Shown: positions 24,139-30,912 of the stretch, piece after piece | Numbering within the stretch: the first letter of the stretch is position 1 | How the letters are laid out: every line of letters starts with the position of its first letter | Assembly (NCBI GenBank): GCA_025056655.1 | Contig: JANWVL010000055.1 | Coordinates: forward strand, 62,001 to 126,000 | Direction of reading: 5' to 3' | Source of the DNA: Candidatus Methylacidiphilales bacterium | GTDB taxonomy: Bacteria > Verrucomicrobiota > Verrucomicrobiia > Methylacidiphilales > JANWVL01 | DNA length: 64,000 nucleotides | Notes under the pieces: generated by a model | Database searches by the model: none | What the model saw: the letters and a program-made list of their open reading frames with translations, nothing else | Told to the model about the DNA's origin: nothing | Made by a program: the position numbers and the translations under genes

Positions 24139-25224
24139 TTATTCTTGACGCATCTCCTCGCGCATGAGCTTTACAGCCTCAAGCTTGATAAAGCGGCCGT
24201 TGCCAGTGCTGGCTATAGCTTTGACAAACTCTTCCTCTCTTGGCTTAGCTTTTGCTGTGATATAGTAGACTGCGTGGATGCGAGGAGGGGTCTCAACTGT
24301 TTCGTTGAGCTGTTTTATAACGTCCTTTATTTCATCTGCTGTGATGGGAATCGTGTTGCCTTTCTTGTTTGCTTCACCATCAGTAAGGATGTAGATCACC
24401 TCGGGGCGCATGGTGTAAGCTAACTTCAAACCTAGATCGGGTCTTGTTTCGCGAGGAGCTTCACGAATCGGATCTTTCCAGTCTCGCATGATTCGCATGA
24501 TGGTATCACGATCGATTTTGCGGATGGCTTCTGCAGCGGCTTGTTTATTGGCGTCTGTAGCTGGGACAAGTTCGCTTTGCCACTTACCGGCAGCGCCGCT
24601 GAAAATAACAAGGCCGAATCGTGTATTGATGCTGACGTTGTTGATTAGATTTATGCATTCCTCTTGGACAAATTTGTAGGCTCCGGGTAATCGATCAAAC
24701 ATGGTGCTGGATACATCAAGGACAAAGACGACAGATCGGCCCTTGTCTTGAATTCCAAAGAATGACATTGTGTCTCCTTCAAACCCTAAATCATCCGGTG
24801 TAGAGCGCTCAGCTGTGCCTATCATTTGATTTGGATCTGTAAGCAGTTTGGTAGGATCGATTGGCGTGATTTCATCAATTGGGATTGGTGGAATTTCTGG
24901 CAAGGCAAAGTCAGTTGGGCGTAGGCTGGCCAAGCGATCGTCAAACACGGGTTTTTCAATGAAAGAATCCACTTCTGCTGAAATCATTCGTTGCTCGATA
25001 ATTTTGGGAGGAATAGCGACTGGTTTTTTAGCCACGAAGGTTGCCTCGGGTTGGGCAAAATAACGCGCAACAATGATCACCGTTGCAATGATACCTCCTG
25101 CAATATGGATAGCGATACTTACCAGAATTACCGTCGCTAATAGGCTGCGCTTAACGACTTTAAGATTTCCGCTGTTTGTTTGATCTGTGTAGGTGGGTGG
25201 AGGAGAAGAAAGGGTGTCGGGCAT
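24139..25224 (-). CDS. Membrane-anchored von Willebrand factor A domain protein of the ExbBD cluster
   Basis: A 361-residue protein with an N-terminal cytoplasmic tail, one membrane helix (about residues 29-53), a Pro/Ile-rich periplasmic linker and a C-terminal vWA domain from about residue 160. The MIDAS metal site is visible as FVLDVSSTM (Asp170, Ser172, Thr174), with a later ILTDGEANKKG acidic motif. The topology resembles TonB (short tail, one anchor, Pro-rich periplasmic arm), but the tip is a metal-dependent adhesion fold. It follows exbD2 by 6 nt. I infer that ExbB-ExbD drive this protein in place of TonB. Confidence 0.82.
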   Translation of the reverse strand: MPDTLSSPPPTYTDQTNSGNLKVVKRSLLATVILVSIAIHIAGGIIATVIIVARYFAQPEATFVAKKPVAIPPKIIEQRMISAEVDSFIEKPVFDDRLASLRPTDFALPEIPPIPIDEITPIDPTKLLTDPNQMIGTAERSTPDDLGFEGDTMSFFGIQDKGRSVVFVLDVSSTMFDRLPGAYKFVQEECINLINNVSINTRFGLVIFSGAAGKWQSELVPATDANKQAAAEAIRKIDRDTIMRIMRDWKDPIREAPRETRPDLGLKLAYTMRPEVIYILTDGEANKKGNTIPITADEIKDVIKQLNETVETPPRIHAVYYITAKAKPREEEFVKAIASTGNGRFIKLEAVKLMREEMRQE

Positions 25225-25230
25225 GTGAGC

Positions 25231-25680
25231 TTATTCCTCCATGGTTTTACCGGCAAAGGTGACGCCGTCGATGTCGGCTTTAGCACAGACATTCATTACA
25301 TCGGCGATGCGTTGATGTTTGACGTCATCTTCCGGATCTAGGGTGACGAGAGCTTCGGATCTATTTGCTTTGCAGGCTTGCTTGAATCGTGTGAGTGTAA
25401 ATAGGAGTTGGGGGAGCTCCTTGCTATCGGGCGTATCAATGGGCATGTCATTGAGTAAGACTTGGCCTGATGCCAAAATTTTAATCCGCTGTTCGTCGGG
25501 AATATCTATTGCTTCCTCTTGGGCGACAGTGCCGGGCAACTTCATTCCTAGATCAGCCTCGGGCTTCAGGGGTTTGGAGGATACAAGGAAGAAGATCAAC
25601 AATAGAAAGACCATGTCGATCATTGGACTCATCGAGATCTCGACATCTTCAGGGCTGCGGCGGGGAAGTCGGACGGCCAT
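25231..25680 (-). CDS. exbD2: ExbD/TolR-family biopolymer transport protein (second copy)
   Basis: A 149-residue single-pass protein. The membrane helix contains the proton-channel aspartate in MSPMIDMVFLLLIFFLVSS (about residues 17-35). The periplasmic part resembles ExbD peptidoglycan/partner-binding domains. It differs from the adjacent ExbD in sequence and in a longer periplasmic insert, so the two probably form a heteromeric pair around the ExbB pentamer. Gaps are 10 nt to exbD1 and 6 nt to the vWA gene, indicating one operon. Confidence 0.9.
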   Translation of the reverse strand: MAVRLPRRSPEDVEISMSPMIDMVFLLLIFFLVSSKPLKPEADLGMKLPGTVAQEEAIDIPDEQRIKILASGQVLLNDMPIDTPDSKELPQLLFTLTRFKQACKANRSEALVTLDPEDDVKHQRIADVMNVCAKADIDGVTFAGKTMEE

Positions 25681-25690
25681 AGGGGAAAGA

Positions 25691-26098
25691 TTACTGTTTG
25701 TAGGTAGCGAAGATCACCTCGATTGCTCCAGCTTCAGCGGCAGCTTCCATGACTTCTTTAATCCGTCTTGCTGTGGTGCGGGCGTCGGCGCGCACGGAGA
25801 TTTGTAATGGGGGATGTTCAATAAGACGTTTCTTGAGATAAGCTTTAAAGCCTTTCATATCTACCTCTTTGTCTCCTGTGAAAATGCGGCCTTCTGCGTC
25901 GATGTTGATGATCTCACGCCCCTTTTGGTTTTCGACATATTTTGCTGCAGTTGCGATGGGGAGGCGGATTTCAAGTTTCTTTTGTTCAGTGGTGATTTTG
26001 CTGGTGACCATGAAGAAAACCAAAAGCAGAAAGACCATATCAATCATCGGCGTGATGTTGACCTTCACGTTTTCTGGTGGTCTTCTTCGGGCGATCAT
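25691..26098 (-). CDS. exbD1: ExbD/TolR-family biopolymer transport protein (first copy)
   Basis: A 135-residue ExbD/TolR homologue with N-terminal basic tail (IARRRPPENVKVN), a membrane helix carrying the conserved aspartate in ITPMIDMVFLLLVFFMVTS, and a periplasmic domain ending VIFATYKQ. It forms a proton-conducting stator with ExbB. It follows exbB by 21 nt and precedes exbD2 by 10 nt. A duplicated ExbD after one ExbB is a known arrangement in TonB systems of several Gram-negative phyla. Confidence 0.92.
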   Translation of the reverse strand: MIARRRPPENVKVNITPMIDMVFLLLVFFMVTSKITTEQKKLEIRLPIATAAKYVENQKGREIINIDAEGRIFTGDKEVDMKGFKAYLKKRLIEHPPLQISVRADARTTARRIKEVMEAAAEAGAIEVIFATYKQ

Positions 26099-26119
26099 GG
26101 TCTAGCTATAGTGGGTCTT

Positions 26120-26911
26120 TTAGGTGTTGGGCGTTTGAGACGTATCAACGTAGACTGGCGCACGCTGGCCGTCGGGCTGGATTTCTCCTGTGAAAAGGTC
26201 GAGCATGTGAGCGAAGGATTTTTGCATGTCTGTGATGATGTTAGTGAGTTGGCTGCGGAAGAAGAAATAGAGAGCGATTGCAGGAATAGCTACGATTAAG
26301 CCTCCGGCTGTAGTTAACATGGCTACACCGATGCCTCCGGCGAGATCTTGGGGTTCGGAGCGTCCCATGGAGAGTTTGTCGAAGGCTTCGATCATTCCGA
26401 CCACGGTGCCGAAGAGGCCGAGCATGGGTGCAAGTTGTGCGCAGACGTTGAGATAATTCACCCAAATGCCGAGTTTAGTTTCTTCGGCGGCGATCGCTTC
26501 ACCAGCAGCAGATTCCATAGCCGGTTTGTTGAACATATCGCGTCCAAAATTAGCTTTGGCGAGCATAGCTGTTGCGGCGCGACCGAGAGGGGTTGCGCTT
26601 GCACGAGCTAGATCGTATGCGGTTTGGACGTCACGCTGGGACATTGCGTCTGTAAGGCTTTTGAGTAAGTGAGGGGGCATGATTGCAGAGCGCCGTATTT
26701 GAATCGAGCATAAGACTGTGAAGGCAATCGTGGCGATAGAGGTGAGGAGAATAGCGTGCATCCATGGGCCGCCCTCTTGGTATTTTTGCAGGAGATTTTT
26801 TTCGATTACAGGGGGTGGAACTTGCGGTGGTGGATTCTCCTGCGAATGAAGGGTAAGAGGAGATAAGGTGCAGCTTGCGAGGAGGATGGGGATGAGGAGG
26901 TGTTTTTTCAT
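26120..26911 (-). CDS. exbB: ExbB/TolQ/MotA-family proton channel protein
   Basis: A 263-residue protein with an N-terminal signal peptide (LLIPILLASCTLSPLTLHS) and three membrane helices. The channel helices carry the family motifs APMLGLFGTVVGMIEAF and LTTAGGLIVAIPAIALY. The cytoplasmic loop between helices 1 and 2 is rich in charged residues. The extra signal sequence plus Pro-rich periplasmic segment is seen in ExbB proteins of TonB-type systems. It uses the proton gradient to move a periplasmic partner. It follows the second TPR-like gene by 18 nt and precedes exbD1 by 21 nt. Confidence 0.93.
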   Translation of the reverse strand: MKKHLLIPILLASCTLSPLTLHSQENPPPQVPPPVIEKNLLQKYQEGGPWMHAILLTSIATIAFTVLCSIQIRRSAIMPPHLLKSLTDAMSQRDVQTAYDLARASATPLGRAATAMLAKANFGRDMFNKPAMESAAGEAIAAEETKLGIWVNYLNVCAQLAPMLGLFGTVVGMIEAFDKLSMGRSEPQDLAGGIGVAMLTTAGGLIVAIPAIALYFFFRSQLTNIITDMQKSFAHMLDLFTGEIQPDGQRAPVYVDTSQTPNT

Positions 26912-26929
26912 AATGGTGTTGTTGTGGGG

Positions 26930-28075
26930 TTAGTTTTTAGGTTGTTTGGGTTTTTTCTTTTCTTCTTGGAGTTTTTCTCTGTCTTTTTTGGAGAGAAAAG
27001 CGGGTCTTTGGCGAGGCGACTCTTGATTTTCGGCAGTCTGGGTTTCGCCTTGAGATAGGGGAGGGGCGGCTTTGTTTTTTTCTGTTTGGTCAGGCATGGG
27101 GGATGATTTATCCTGCGTGGTGGGGTCTTCATTATCTTGAGGGGGAGGGTTTTTTATCAAGAAATCCTTTGCTGCAGGTAAGTAGGTGGGGTGAGGGTAG
27201 TAGTTAACGATTTCTTGTGCGGCTTTGATTGCTGATTCACGGTCATTCAGGACCATATATATTGAGATGAGCTTGTGGAATGAGCGGGCGACAAGCTCTT
27301 GGTGGTCAGGGATGAATACGACAGGGAAGAGTATATTATCAATCGCAGCATCAATCAAAGCGCGTCGTTCGCGCGTTTTTTCGGGCATAATTGACCAACG
27401 GGGAAATTCAGTTTCTAGTTCTTTAACTTTTTGAAGTTGGGAAAGGGCGAGAACCCACTTTGATTCTGCGATGAGGTTGAGGTTGTCGGGGGCGGTTTCT
27501 GAGAGTTCTTGAGCCAAGTTTAATGCTTTTTCCGTCTCTCCGCGGAGCAGTGCGAGCTGAAGGAGCAGAGGCGCTGTTTTTTCTTTGATGTTTGGTAGCC
27601 ACGTTTTTTCGGCAACGGTTTGGATAATATTCTCAATGGGGTCAGCTTTTGTGGGATCTTGAAGTTCAAGCATGAGGCGGGCGAGCTGAAGTCCCCACTG
27701 CCATGCGTCGGATTCTGGGATGGGGAGGAATGGGCGGCGTTGTTGCCATATTGTTTCTACTGCAGTGATGTTTTGGGGATCTTGTGATAGTAGAAGTTTA
27801 CGTTCGTCCTCTGATGGGGTGAATGTGAGTTTTTCGATGAGATTTAGGTCGTAGGTAAGGATGGCAGAGCCTGCACCGATTTGTTTTTCAAAGTGGACTT
27901 GATTTTTATCAAGCTTAAGGATTCGCCCTGTTTCTTCTTGGCCTGATTTTAGAAGAATTTTGTCGTTTTGGGAGTGGAGATAGATGGGGCAAAATGATAA
28001 TAGGGCAAGGAATAGGGAAGCGCGGGAAGCTTGGAGTAGTGGGGGTTGAGAGCGGTAGGGGAAGAAGTGGGGCAT
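26930..28075 (-). CDS. Exported helical-repeat protein of the ExbBD cluster
   Basis: A 381-residue secreted protein; the signal peptide is around ASLFLALLSFCPIYLHSQ. Residues about 38-85 form a beta-rich module (LLKSGQEETGRILKLDKN...) resembling small SHD1/Sm-like barrels. Residues about 95-310 are alpha-helical repeats of TPR type (ALNLAQELSETAPDN, AIKAAQEIVNYYPHPTYL). The final 70 residues are Pro-, Lys-, Gln- and Glu-rich and probably disordered. It is tightly placed between the giant TPR gene (5 nt) and exbB (18 nt). It is likely a periplasmic adaptor of the energised complex. The exact function is unknown. Confidence 0.75.
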   Translation of the reverse strand: MPHFFPYRSQPPLLQASRASLFLALLSFCPIYLHSQNDKILLKSGQEETGRILKLDKNQVHFEKQIGAGSAILTYDLNLIEKLTFTPSEDERKLLLSQDPQNITAVETIWQQRRPFLPIPESDAWQWGLQLARLMLELQDPTKADPIENIIQTVAEKTWLPNIKEKTAPLLLQLALLRGETEKALNLAQELSETAPDNLNLIAESKWVLALSQLQKVKELETEFPRWSIMPEKTRERRALIDAAIDNILFPVVFIPDHQELVARSFHKLISIYMVLNDRESAIKAAQEIVNYYPHPTYLPAAKDFLIKNPPPQDNEDPTTQDKSSPMPDQTEKNKAAPPLSQGETQTAENQESPRQRPAFLSKKDREKLQEEKKKPKQPKN

Positions 28076-28080
28076 AACGG

Positions 28081-30912
28081 TTATCCCTCGAGTTCGCGCA
28101 AGCGGTTTTGGGCTAAGATATAGGTCTCTTGATCTTTGAGATGCTCTTGCTCGATGAATTCTTGGTAGGTCTGGCGAGCCTCTTGTATCATTTTGAGTTG
28201 TTCAAAGGCTTGACCACTTTGCCAATAGGCGTGAGCAACTGCTTGTGTGTAGCGGCCATACATAATGTAGATGCGTTGGTAATAAGGGATTGCTTTGTCA
28301 GGTTTATTGAGGGTCATGTAGGCATCACCGATACCTTTCAGGGCGATCACAGAGGGTAATCCTCGAGCGTTGGGCGCTTTGAGTAGAGCTTCATAGGTAG
28401 CAATGGCTTCTGGGTATTGTTTTTTTTCGATTAAGATTTCTGCTTTGGCTTGGAGGACTTGCGGGAGTAGAGCGGACTGGATGGATTCTTTTTCAAATCG
28501 AGCAAACCATGTCAAAGCTTCTTGGTTGCGACTTTGTGCGCGGGCGATTAAGCCGAGCCCTGCAAAGGCGCGATCGCGGTGGCGGGAGAGGGGGTGCCAT
28601 TTGAGTAAATCATTGTAGACCGCAGCTGCTCGATCCAGGCGTTTATCTTCTCGGAGTCGATCTGCATAATCGGCAAGGAGTAGTGGGTTGGCGAGGTCGG
28701 GGGGGATGATTTCGCCGGCTTTTAAGAGCAGAAGGCGGGCTCGCTCAGGTTCACGGCGGTTGATGATTTTACTGTGTGCCCAGAGGAGGCGTGCGGCAAA
28801 GACGTTTTGTTTTTCTTCGATTGCTTTCTGGGTAAGGGATGAGAGTTCTTCATCTAGTTTTTTACGGTCTTCGTCGCTGCGATATAGGCGGGCGAGGCTG
28901 GTGAGGAGCTCTTCTACGCCGGAGTTGTTGGGATCGTTGCCGTGCTTGAGGATACCTTGCCAGTAGATTTTTCTGGCTTCTTGGATCTGATCGCGAGCTT
29001 GATAGATTTTGGCGACTTGAAGTAAGGCTTCTGGCACGCGTGGGCTGTCGGGGAAAATTTCGGGGAATTTTTTGAAATGCTCTAGGAAGGCGTCTTCGAG
29101 TTCGAGGGCTTTGAGGCCTTTTCCTATTTGGAAGTAGGCTTGTTCGGCTAGACGGCGGTTTGTGTTGGAGATTTTTCTGAAGCGATTTAGGCCTGCTTCA
29201 ATATTTGCGATGGCAAAATAAGATTCTCCGAGGGTGTAAAGGGCTTGGTCTACGCGGGAGCCACGGGGGAATTTTTGGAGAAAAGCTTCGAGCTCGGTGA
29301 TGGCTTTTTCAAAGTTGAGTTCAGCAAAGTATGAGTAAGCTTGGAGGAAAGCGATGTCGGATTGAAAAGCTCCGTTTGGGAAGGTTTTGAAATAGAGTGC
29401 GCAGGCGGCACGTGTGGCGGGATAGTCTTTGTTGTAGTTGTGGGATTGGGCGAGCCAGAAGATTGCATTCTCGAGCAGAGGTGATTTGGGGTAGAGTGTG
29501 GGGAACGGCTCAAAATGGGCAACTGCTTCAGCATATTTTTCTTGGAGCAGTTTTGAATAACCAAGGAGGAAATAGACGCGATCTGATTGAGGGAAGTCTT
29601 TGTATTGGTTGTGTATGGTTTCGAATGTTTTTTCAGCATCATTATAGAGCTTGGCTTGGAGCTGGGCTTCTCCTTTTGCAAAGAGGATTGAGGGGAGGTA
29701 TTTGCTTTTAGGGAAGCGGGTGATGAATTGATCCGCTGCGATGATTGCGCGGTCTGTTCGGCCGATGTTGCTGTAGCAAGCTGTAAGGCGAAAGAGGGTC
29801 TCTTCGAGTAAGGGGCCGTCAGGAAGGTTGCGAGCCATGGTTTCGATCCAGAGGGCGGCTTCGCGGAAACGTTCTAGCTTGAAGTAGGCTTGCATGACGC
29901 GAAGGCTGAGGGCTGAGTCGTATTCTTGGATTTTGGAGAAGGATTCGAGGTCGCGATTAATTTGGTTTAGGGCATTTTCTATTTCTAGGACTTGAGAGGC
30001 AGCAGATGGGTTTCCACGGAGGCGGGTGAGTTGATTTTCCAGGGATTGTTTGTGTTCTTCTTGTCGGGTGAGGATTCTTTTTTTAGGCCATATTTTTTGT
30101 AGGACTAGAAGGGCTTCTCTATTGCGGTTGAGTGAGAGTAGGCGATCGCTGAGCTTGAGGCCTAGCATGTGAAAGGTAGCGAGAGTATCAAGCTGGGGGA
30201 GTCGTTGGTGGGTTTCAAGGAAGGCTTGGATGGCGGCGTTGTCGTTTTCGAGTTGAATTTGGCAGTATAGGCGGATCAGCGCAGCGCGGTGGTGGATGGC
30301 TGTTGTGCCGGCGTCTTTTAATTCTGTGAGGATAGGGATGGCGGATTGATATTGTTCCTCAGCTATGAAGCTTGTGGCTTTGAGGAAGTAAAGGAACAGC
30401 GCTTTGGGACTTTGCGGAAACTTTTTTAGAAAAGCATCAATATCATCGCGAGCGTGTTTGTATTGTTCCTCCTGAAGGTGTGCAATTGTGCGCCAGAAGC
30501 GAATGTCCTCAAGGAATTTGCTTTCTGGATATTTCTCGAGAAAAGATTCAGAGCCTTCGATTACCTCATTCCATTTTTTGTTGTAACCTTGGGCTTGAAT
30601 GAGGAATGCGGAGATGGTCTCTAGGTGAGGTTGGGCTTCTTTGCTTTTGCCGAAGTCTTGAAGGAAGCGTTGAAGTAAGCTTTCGGCTTCAACGAAGTTG
30701 CCAGCTCGGAAGGCGTCGAAGCCTTTTTTGATCATTTCGTCGGCGACTAAGGAGGAAGGGTTGGTTTGGGAGAGGATTGAAGATTCGGAAAGTGTTAGCA
30801 GGAAGCAGAGCAGTAAAGTGCGGGCAGAGTTCGCTAGGAACTGGTGCATTGAGAAGATTAATAACTGAATGGATGCGTTTGGGAATAGGCTTTTGTGTAA
30901 AAATTTTGTCAT
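28081..30912 (-). CDS. Giant secreted TPR protein of the ExbBD cluster
   Basis: A 943-residue protein built almost entirely of tetratricopeptide repeats (for example FEAGNF-like FRAGNFVEAESLLQRFL near residue 73 and PGYYQR-like AIPYYQRIYIMYGRY near the C-terminus). A signal peptide is visible (TLLLCFLLTLSESSILSQ); translation may start at ATG 30912 or at the in-frame ATG 30849. TPR folds of this YbgF/BamD style bind other envelope proteins; in Tol-Pal systems CpoB/YbgF plays this role next to TolQR. It is the first gene of the cluster, divergent from the NPCBM lipoprotein gene by 86 nt. I infer that it is the periplasmic scaffold of the machine. Confidence 0.85.
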   Translation of the reverse strand: MTKFLHKSLFPNASIQLLIFSMHQFLANSARTLLLCFLLTLSESSILSQTNPSSLVADEMIKKGFDAFRAGNFVEAESLLQRFLQDFGKSKEAQPHLETISAFLIQAQGYNKKWNEVIEGSESFLEKYPESKFLEDIRFWRTIAHLQEEQYKHARDDIDAFLKKFPQSPKALFLYFLKATSFIAEEQYQSAIPILTELKDAGTTAIHHRAALIRLYCQIQLENDNAAIQAFLETHQRLPQLDTLATFHMLGLKLSDRLLSLNRNREALLVLQKIWPKKRILTRQEEHKQSLENQLTRLRGNPSAASQVLEIENALNQINRDLESFSKIQEYDSALSLRVMQAYFKLERFREAALWIETMARNLPDGPLLEETLFRLTACYSNIGRTDRAIIAADQFITRFPKSKYLPSILFAKGEAQLQAKLYNDAEKTFETIHNQYKDFPQSDRVYFLLGYSKLLQEKYAEAVAHFEPFPTLYPKSPLLENAIFWLAQSHNYNKDYPATRAACALYFKTFPNGAFQSDIAFLQAYSYFAELNFEKAITELEAFLQKFPRGSRVDQALYTLGESYFAIANIEAGLNRFRKISNTNRRLAEQAYFQIGKGLKALELEDAFLEHFKKFPEIFPDSPRVPEALLQVAKIYQARDQIQEARKIYWQGILKHGNDPNNSGVEELLTSLARLYRSDEDRKKLDEELSSLTQKAIEEKQNVFAARLLWAHSKIINRREPERARLLLLKAGEIIPPDLANPLLLADYADRLREDKRLDRAAAVYNDLLKWHPLSRHRDRAFAGLGLIARAQSRNQEALTWFARFEKESIQSALLPQVLQAKAEILIEKKQYPEAIATYEALLKAPNARGLPSVIALKGIGDAYMTLNKPDKAIPYYQRIYIMYGRYTQAVAHAYWQSGQAFEQLKMIQEARQTYQEFIEQEHLKDQETYILAQNRLRELEG

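Follow-up and report, generated by a model that had tools for sequence, protein, structure and literature searches.

The window that we analyzed is a 64,000-nucleotide stretch of DNA from Candidatus Methylacidiphilales bacterium (assembly GCA_025056655.1, contig JANWVL010000055.1, positions 62,001 to 126,000). At 24139-30912 it holds a cluster of six minus-strand genes for a giant TPR protein, a smaller TPR protein that begins with a barrel (the barrel-TPR protein), an ExbB, two different ExbDs (ExbD1 and ExbD2) and a protein of TonB-like topology that ends in a vWA domain. The cluster is a further member of a vWA force-transducer class whose arrangement is already published (PMC12204202; Mol Biol Evol, June 2025; section 8, Fig. 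4a,b; Tichowtungia family), although an initial annotation of the window had proposed an undescribed system. We put at about three in four the probability that a proton-driven ExbB-ExbD motor moves the docked vWA protein as its arm, with the TPR proteins as likely fixed partners. Among proton-driven transducers acting across the periplasm, only the arms of Ton and Tol are well understood, and the cluster represents a third kind.

Match to a published class of force transducers

The part of PMC12204202 concerned describes, in the Planctomycetes-Verrucomicrobia-Chlamydiae (PVC) group, a set comprising a TPR gene, a tolQ-like gene, a heterologous tolR-like pair and a TonB-topology vWA force transducer, and gives its function as unknown. 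The transducers described there have a transmembrane helix with an SHLS motif, then a disordered linker of about 100 residues and, at the place of the TonB or TolA domain, a vWA domain. AlphaFold3 models of homologous complexes in the same section use a conserved His of the transducer helix to dock it on the motor. Every feature open to testing is present in the window, which is why we assign the cluster to this class: a tolQ-type gene and two tolR-type genes that differ from each other, an arm made of transmembrane helix, linker and vWA domain, a His in that helix, and adjacent TPR genes. Gene order, motor genes, TPR gene and the arm with its docking His are the same as in the published set, as far as that section describes it; the section has one TPR gene, in contrast to the two found here, and vWA heads only. 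What we add to its account is the second conserved TPR gene with its N-terminal barrel, the age of the split between ExbD1 and ExbD2, and the swapping of heads.

The vWA protein contains a single hydrophobic helix, with its hydropathy peak at residue 33. Within this helix, S36-x3-H40 matches in sequence the motor-docking signature of TonB and TolA; further along, Ala47 and Ile51 stand, by sight, where the published SHLS motif has Leu and Ser. An AlphaFold2 model of the arm (predicted local distance difference test score, pLDDT, 77.3) is confident for the transmembrane helix and the vWA fold and leaves the linker disordered. The nearest solved folds of the head found with Foldseek are the inter-alpha-inhibitor heavy chain ITIH4 (1e-10) and BatB (4.8e-9). 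Pfam reported VWA as the only domain of the arm, and the TonB C-terminal domain (TonB_C) was not matched. An alignment of seven orthologues shows D170, S172 and D282 of the head to be invariant, and from its sequence we infer metal binding by this head. Hydropathy, the AlphaFold2 model and the sequence all bear out the initial annotation of a single-pass, TonB-like protein with D-x-S-x-T at residues 170-174. Its wider proposal, a proton-driven ExbB-ExbD machine with a TonB-like vWA arm, is supported by S36-x3-H40, by the co-conservation of vWA protein and motor, and by the finding that three other motors of the genome have TonB_C genes of their own.

In the mechanism that we propose, ExbB would form a pentameric proton channel, inside which one ExbD1 and one ExbD2 would act as a two-part shaft. 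The membrane helix of the vWA protein would dock on the outside of ExbB via S36 and H40, as those of TonB and TolA do, and proton flow would cause the motor to pull or twist the arm, if force is transmitted as in Ton and Tol. With the disordered linker extending through the periplasm, the vWA head would reach a partner located there or in the outer membrane. Likely fixed partners are the giant TPR protein, as a scaffold that may be periplasmic or face the outer membrane, and the barrel-TPR protein as an adaptor. The head is proposed to choose what is pulled, which would be why other members carry other heads. Our guess is that the pulled partner is an outer-membrane-associated assembly and that the machine is one of several dedicated Ton/Tol-like systems.

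Chassis and heads in Verrucomicrobiota

We searched 388 Verrucomicrobiota genomes with an ExbD2 profile (E <= 1e-12) and obtained ExbD2-type matches in 220. ExbD2 served as the handle because searching with the vWA protein brings in unrelated vWA proteins; as a query for related loci, the vWA protein gave two loci only. Relatives were chosen by similarity to the ExbD2 of vWA-type loci, and 80 of the matching loci were taken with their flanks and scanned with profiles of all six cluster proteins. ExbB, ExbD1 and ExbD2 occur together in 62 of the 80. The gene order of the window recurs in L001, L002, L043 and L044, and also in L046, with frame breaks there; since it is shared by distant families of the phylum, the cluster is not a product of chance.

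Among the 54 motor loci with more than 5.3 kb of upstream sequence, the giant TPR gene is found in 53, and the smaller TPR gene likewise in 53. The conserved chassis is therefore made up of the two TPR genes, ExbB, ExbD1 and ExbD2. As a control, 14 orphan ExbD pairs with as much upstream sequence had no TPR genes and no head nearby. Altogether, 16 ExbD1-ExbD2 pairs had no adjoining ExbB, TPR or head genes (Table 1); two of the three genomes examined with such pairs have full clusters elsewhere (L215 and L216 in one, L217 in the other). At a further locus, L158, the vWA gene is broken into pieces and placed between ExbB and ExbD1, and the ExbD pair groups with the orphan pairs in the tree described below.

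The ExbD1 and ExbD2 of the window share 39% identity over 76 aligned residues. In a tree of 169 ExbD sequences they belong to two separate sets of 82 rows each, with supports of 99/85 (D1) and 99/98 (D2); the D1 set comprises 63 cluster, 17 orphan and 2 DUF4159-type sequences. TonB-type ExbDs of the window's genome fall outside both sets. According to this tree, the ExbD1 and ExbD2 lineages are separate and ancient. Motors with toroid, PA14 and DUF4159 heads cluster together within D1 and again within D2; the alignment is short (148 columns), some of its rows are long, and inner details of the tree are unsure.

The head is more variable than the chassis. At the 57 motor loci with more than 1.5 kb of downstream sequence, we counted 44 vWA heads, 4 toroid heads resembling squalene cyclases and prenyltransferases (L175, L179, L181 and L186), 2 PA14-like heads and 7 loci without a normal head gene. 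A script had counted 45 vWA heads; L174, which had scored as vWA through its shared anchor and linker, was moved to the PA14-like heads on its 37% identity to L172, and L172 itself, which the script had grouped with the toroid heads, was reassigned to PA14 by Pfam. The counts are borne out by a profile built from the vWA region alone. Of the six genes, whose co-conservation the initial annotation had named as a check, both TPR genes are nearly always kept with the motor, and the vWA head is common there but not invariant.

What the heads have in common is the way that they are anchored. Across all head types, 51 of 53 have a His in the middle of the transmembrane helix and 44 a Ser four residues before it, and a central His is also found in the helix of the DUF4159 arm and of extra PA14-like arms. 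At L175, one motor has two arms, one toroid and one PA14. Two tandem arms at L216:9553-11854 are 78% identical over their first 137 residues, which cover anchor and linker, and unrelated thereafter; of the two heads, one resembles PA14 (E 0.0012, which does not reach the Pfam cut-off) and the other looks like a degenerate vWA domain, by sight only. This pair of arms is the best evidence of a swap of heads on a docking part that stays the same. At least two clusters with different heads are present in many genomes (L111/L186, L172/L184 and L215/L216).

The machine is not defined by its vWA head, because a toroid, PA14-like or DUF4159 domain takes its place in some relatives and others have no head. 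Nor can metal-dependent, integrin-like adhesion be its general principle, because several vWA heads have a degenerate metal-site motif (for example DAGAS in L154 and L165, and DTNRQ in L180). The adhesion-type fold that the initial annotation had placed at the end of the moving arm is present as a vWA fold, but it is exchanged in some relatives and has a degenerate metal site in several others. On balance, we favor a modular machine found throughout the phylum, in which a fixed chassis (ExbB, an obligate ExbD1-ExbD2 pair, the giant TPR protein and the barrel-TPR protein) drives exchangeable vWA, PA14-like, squalene-cyclase-like toroid or DUF4159 heads on a kept anchor and linker. As the head would set the target, several dedicated force-transducing systems, neither TonB nor Tol, would work side by side in Verrucomicrobiota. 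Our literature search for DUF4159 or PA14 heads of ExbD motors gave PMC12204202 as the only relevant article.

Several observations weigh against a motor that moves a docked vWA arm. There is no adjoining head gene at L164, L166, L169, L170, L176 and L185, so a head may sit elsewhere or be dispensable. The vWA arms of L127 and L159 lack the His in the transmembrane helix. Moreover, the head counts are tilted towards vWA motors, because loci were picked by their ExbD2 similarity.

Possible tasks of the machine

Since the genome of the window contains three TonB_C proteins, we considered whether this ExbB-ExbD set serves a TonB encoded elsewhere, as in an ordinary TonB system. This is very improbable, as each TonB_C gene adjoins its own ExbB and ExbD and the cluster has its own protein of TonB topology, with a docking motif in nearly all relatives; the initial annotation had named this possibility as one that would undo its proposal. 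The cluster shares with Ton (ExbB-ExbD-TonB) the motor proteins, the arm topology and the S-x3-H docking motif, but differs from it in the absence of TonB_C from the arm, in having two ExbDs and in lacking an adjacent TonB-dependent receptor. A Tol-Pal substitute, which would hold the outer membrane to the cell and make it constrict as the cell divides, while the giant TPR protein replaces CpoB or TolB, is a tentative alternative. Like Tol-Pal (TolQRA, TolB, Pal and CpoB), the cluster has a motor, an arm and a TPR protein that matches YbgF/CpoB models, as well as BamD-type ones; it differs in the lack of a TolA C-terminal domain, in its two ExbDs and in a TPR protein that is giant rather than small. 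The TolB_N profile had no match in the window's genome and matches in 13 of the 388 genomes, against 220 for the ExbD2-type motor, although this model may overlook a divergent TolB. Classical Tol-Pal thus seems rare or very divergent in Verrucomicrobiota. However, 10 of the 13 genomes with TolB_N are also among those with an ExbD2-type match, so the presence of one does not preclude the other, and the many genomes with several clusters and different heads are better explained by dedicated tasks than by one housekeeping task.

That diversity of heads (vWA, PA14-like, toroid and DUF4159) and the several clusters per genome would also suit a dedicated import or export machine, in which the arm opens or drives a polymer-handling outer-membrane assembly, as in Ton, and the head fixes the target. 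We regard this as about as likely as a Tol-Pal substitute; against it, the cluster has no constant neighbor that encodes an outer-membrane receptor or channel. Two loci that presumably belong to Akkermansia, L212 and L214, encode a giant TPR protein (1100 aa) and a 347-aa protein after ExbB-ExbD-ExbD, with no adjoining arm gene. They may be tied to mucin uptake in this genus. Reviews state that mucin uptake by Akkermansia requires a periplasmic protein complex.

It is unlikely, in our view, that the vWA protein is a docked regulator or anchor similar to BatA and BatB, with the motor acting through the periplasmic domains of the ExbDs on the TPR proteins. Such a role would fit the greater constancy of the TPR genes (53/54, compared with 44/57 for the vWA head), the motors without an adjoining head and the presence of BatB among the closest solved folds. 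The aerotolerance proteins BatA and BatB are likewise membrane-anchored vWA proteins, often with TPR proteins alongside, but they are not known to have an ExbB/ExbD motor partner, and their membrane topology differs. Unrelated heads share the docking His and the TonB-like topology, which would be expected if the vWA protein were an arm but not if it were a regulator. Less probable still is a gliding or surface-adhesion machine comparable to Agl-Glt of Myxococcus, which, according to PMC4488436, likewise has a single TolQ homologue (AglR) alongside two of TolR (AglQ and AglS) and involves the vWA lipoproteins CglB and CglD. PMC12204202 raises gliding as a possible role. The vWA proteins of Agl-Glt, however, are outer-membrane lipoproteins instead of inner-membrane arms, and that system has many more components; no other Glt-type genes turned up, none having been searched for, and the degenerate metal sites of several heads also speak against adhesion. 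For a docked arm that is moved by the motor, the swaps of heads and the near-constant pair of TPR proteins make the question of what it pulls on directly testable.

Gene features and other motors of the genome

Successive genes of the cluster are separated by 5, 18, 21, 10 and 6 nt. Open reading frames and Pfam confirmed the six genes, gaps and domain identities of the initial annotation (Table 1). Its two helical-repeat proteins need one correction: the solenoid is present, but in the AlphaFold2 model the 381-aa protein starts with a five-strand barrel. Foldseek matched this model to generic TPR folds only, none with E < 0.001, and a sequence search of the Protein Data Bank (PDB) with the TPR proteins and the 347-aa protein found generic TPR proteins and CpoB as the only solved relatives. 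Both TPR proteins are predicted to be secreted, on account of their N-terminal hydrophobic stretches; the giant one probably has a signal peptide, and its start may lie later, at Met22. ExbB has a hydrophobic leader at its N-terminus. A PMIDMVFLLL helix is present in both ExbD1 and ExbD2, and its Asp is the residue of the ExbD/TolR membrane helix that carries protons. Scans of the cluster for promoters and terminators gave signals near the shuffle background, and the text of an essential-genome paper on Verrucomicrobium spinosum does not name the cluster genes.

Table 1 Features of the cluster in the window, with the orphan ExbD pairs of related loci
Feature	Position	Strand	Evidence
Giant TPR protein, 943 aa	28081-30912	-	Pfam YfiO/TPR, many TPR families; NCBIfam tol_pal_ybgF repeats 9e-51
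Barrel-TPR protein, 381 aa	26930-28075	-	Weak Pfam TPR; AlphaFold2 pLDDT 87.3
Five-strand small barrel, residues 38-84 of the 381-aa protein	27824-27964	-	AlphaFold2 model
Helical (TPR-like) solenoid, residues 89-308 of the 381-aa protein	27152-27811	-	AlphaFold2 and PDB fold search
ExbB/TolQ-type proton channel subunit, 263 aa	26120-26911	-	Pfam MotA_ExbB 5.6e-26
ExbD1, 135 aa	25691-26098	-	Pfam ExbD 3.1e-27; D1 lineage in tree
ExbD1 Asp20 within PMIDMVFLLL, proton-carrying Asp position	26039-26041	-	Sequence
ExbD2, 149 aa	25231-25680	-	Pfam ExbD 1.2e-19; D2 lineage in tree
ExbD2 Asp22	25615-25617	-	Invariant in alignment of seven orthologues
TonB-topology transducer with vWA head, 361 aa	24139-25224	-	Open reading frame, Pfam, AlphaFold2
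Membrane helix of the arm, residues 21-56	25057-25164	-	AlphaFold2; hydropathy
S36-x3-H40 motor-docking motif	25105-25119	-	S36 and H40 invariant in seven-orthologue alignment
Disordered Pro/acid-rich linker, residues 57-150 (~94 residues)	24775-25056	-	Low pLDDT; composition
vWA head, residues 152-360	24145-24771	-	Pfam VWA 5e-7 (residues 165-350); AlphaFold2; Foldseek
Metal-site (MIDAS) motif D170-x-S172-x-T174	24703-24717	-	Sequence
Orphan ExbD1-ExbD2 pairs	L118, L123, L125, L128, L130-L132, L145, L150, L155-L157, L160, L161, L163, L171		

The genome of the window has seven ExbB motors. Besides the three that adjoin a TonB_C gene, the motor on contig C64 adjoins a protein of TonB topology. 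On contig C32 (L056:4385-7594), ExbB-ExbD-ExbD is followed by an arm of transmembrane helix, linker and DUF4159 domain (PF13709, 5e-27), with a central His in the helix and a linker rich in Pro and Thr. Four proteins with an OmpA domain, the domain of the lipoprotein Pal, are encoded in the genome, all of them outside the cluster. On contig C132 (L059:8042-11737), ExbB-ExbD is followed by a 795-aa TPR protein, with no TonB-like arm.

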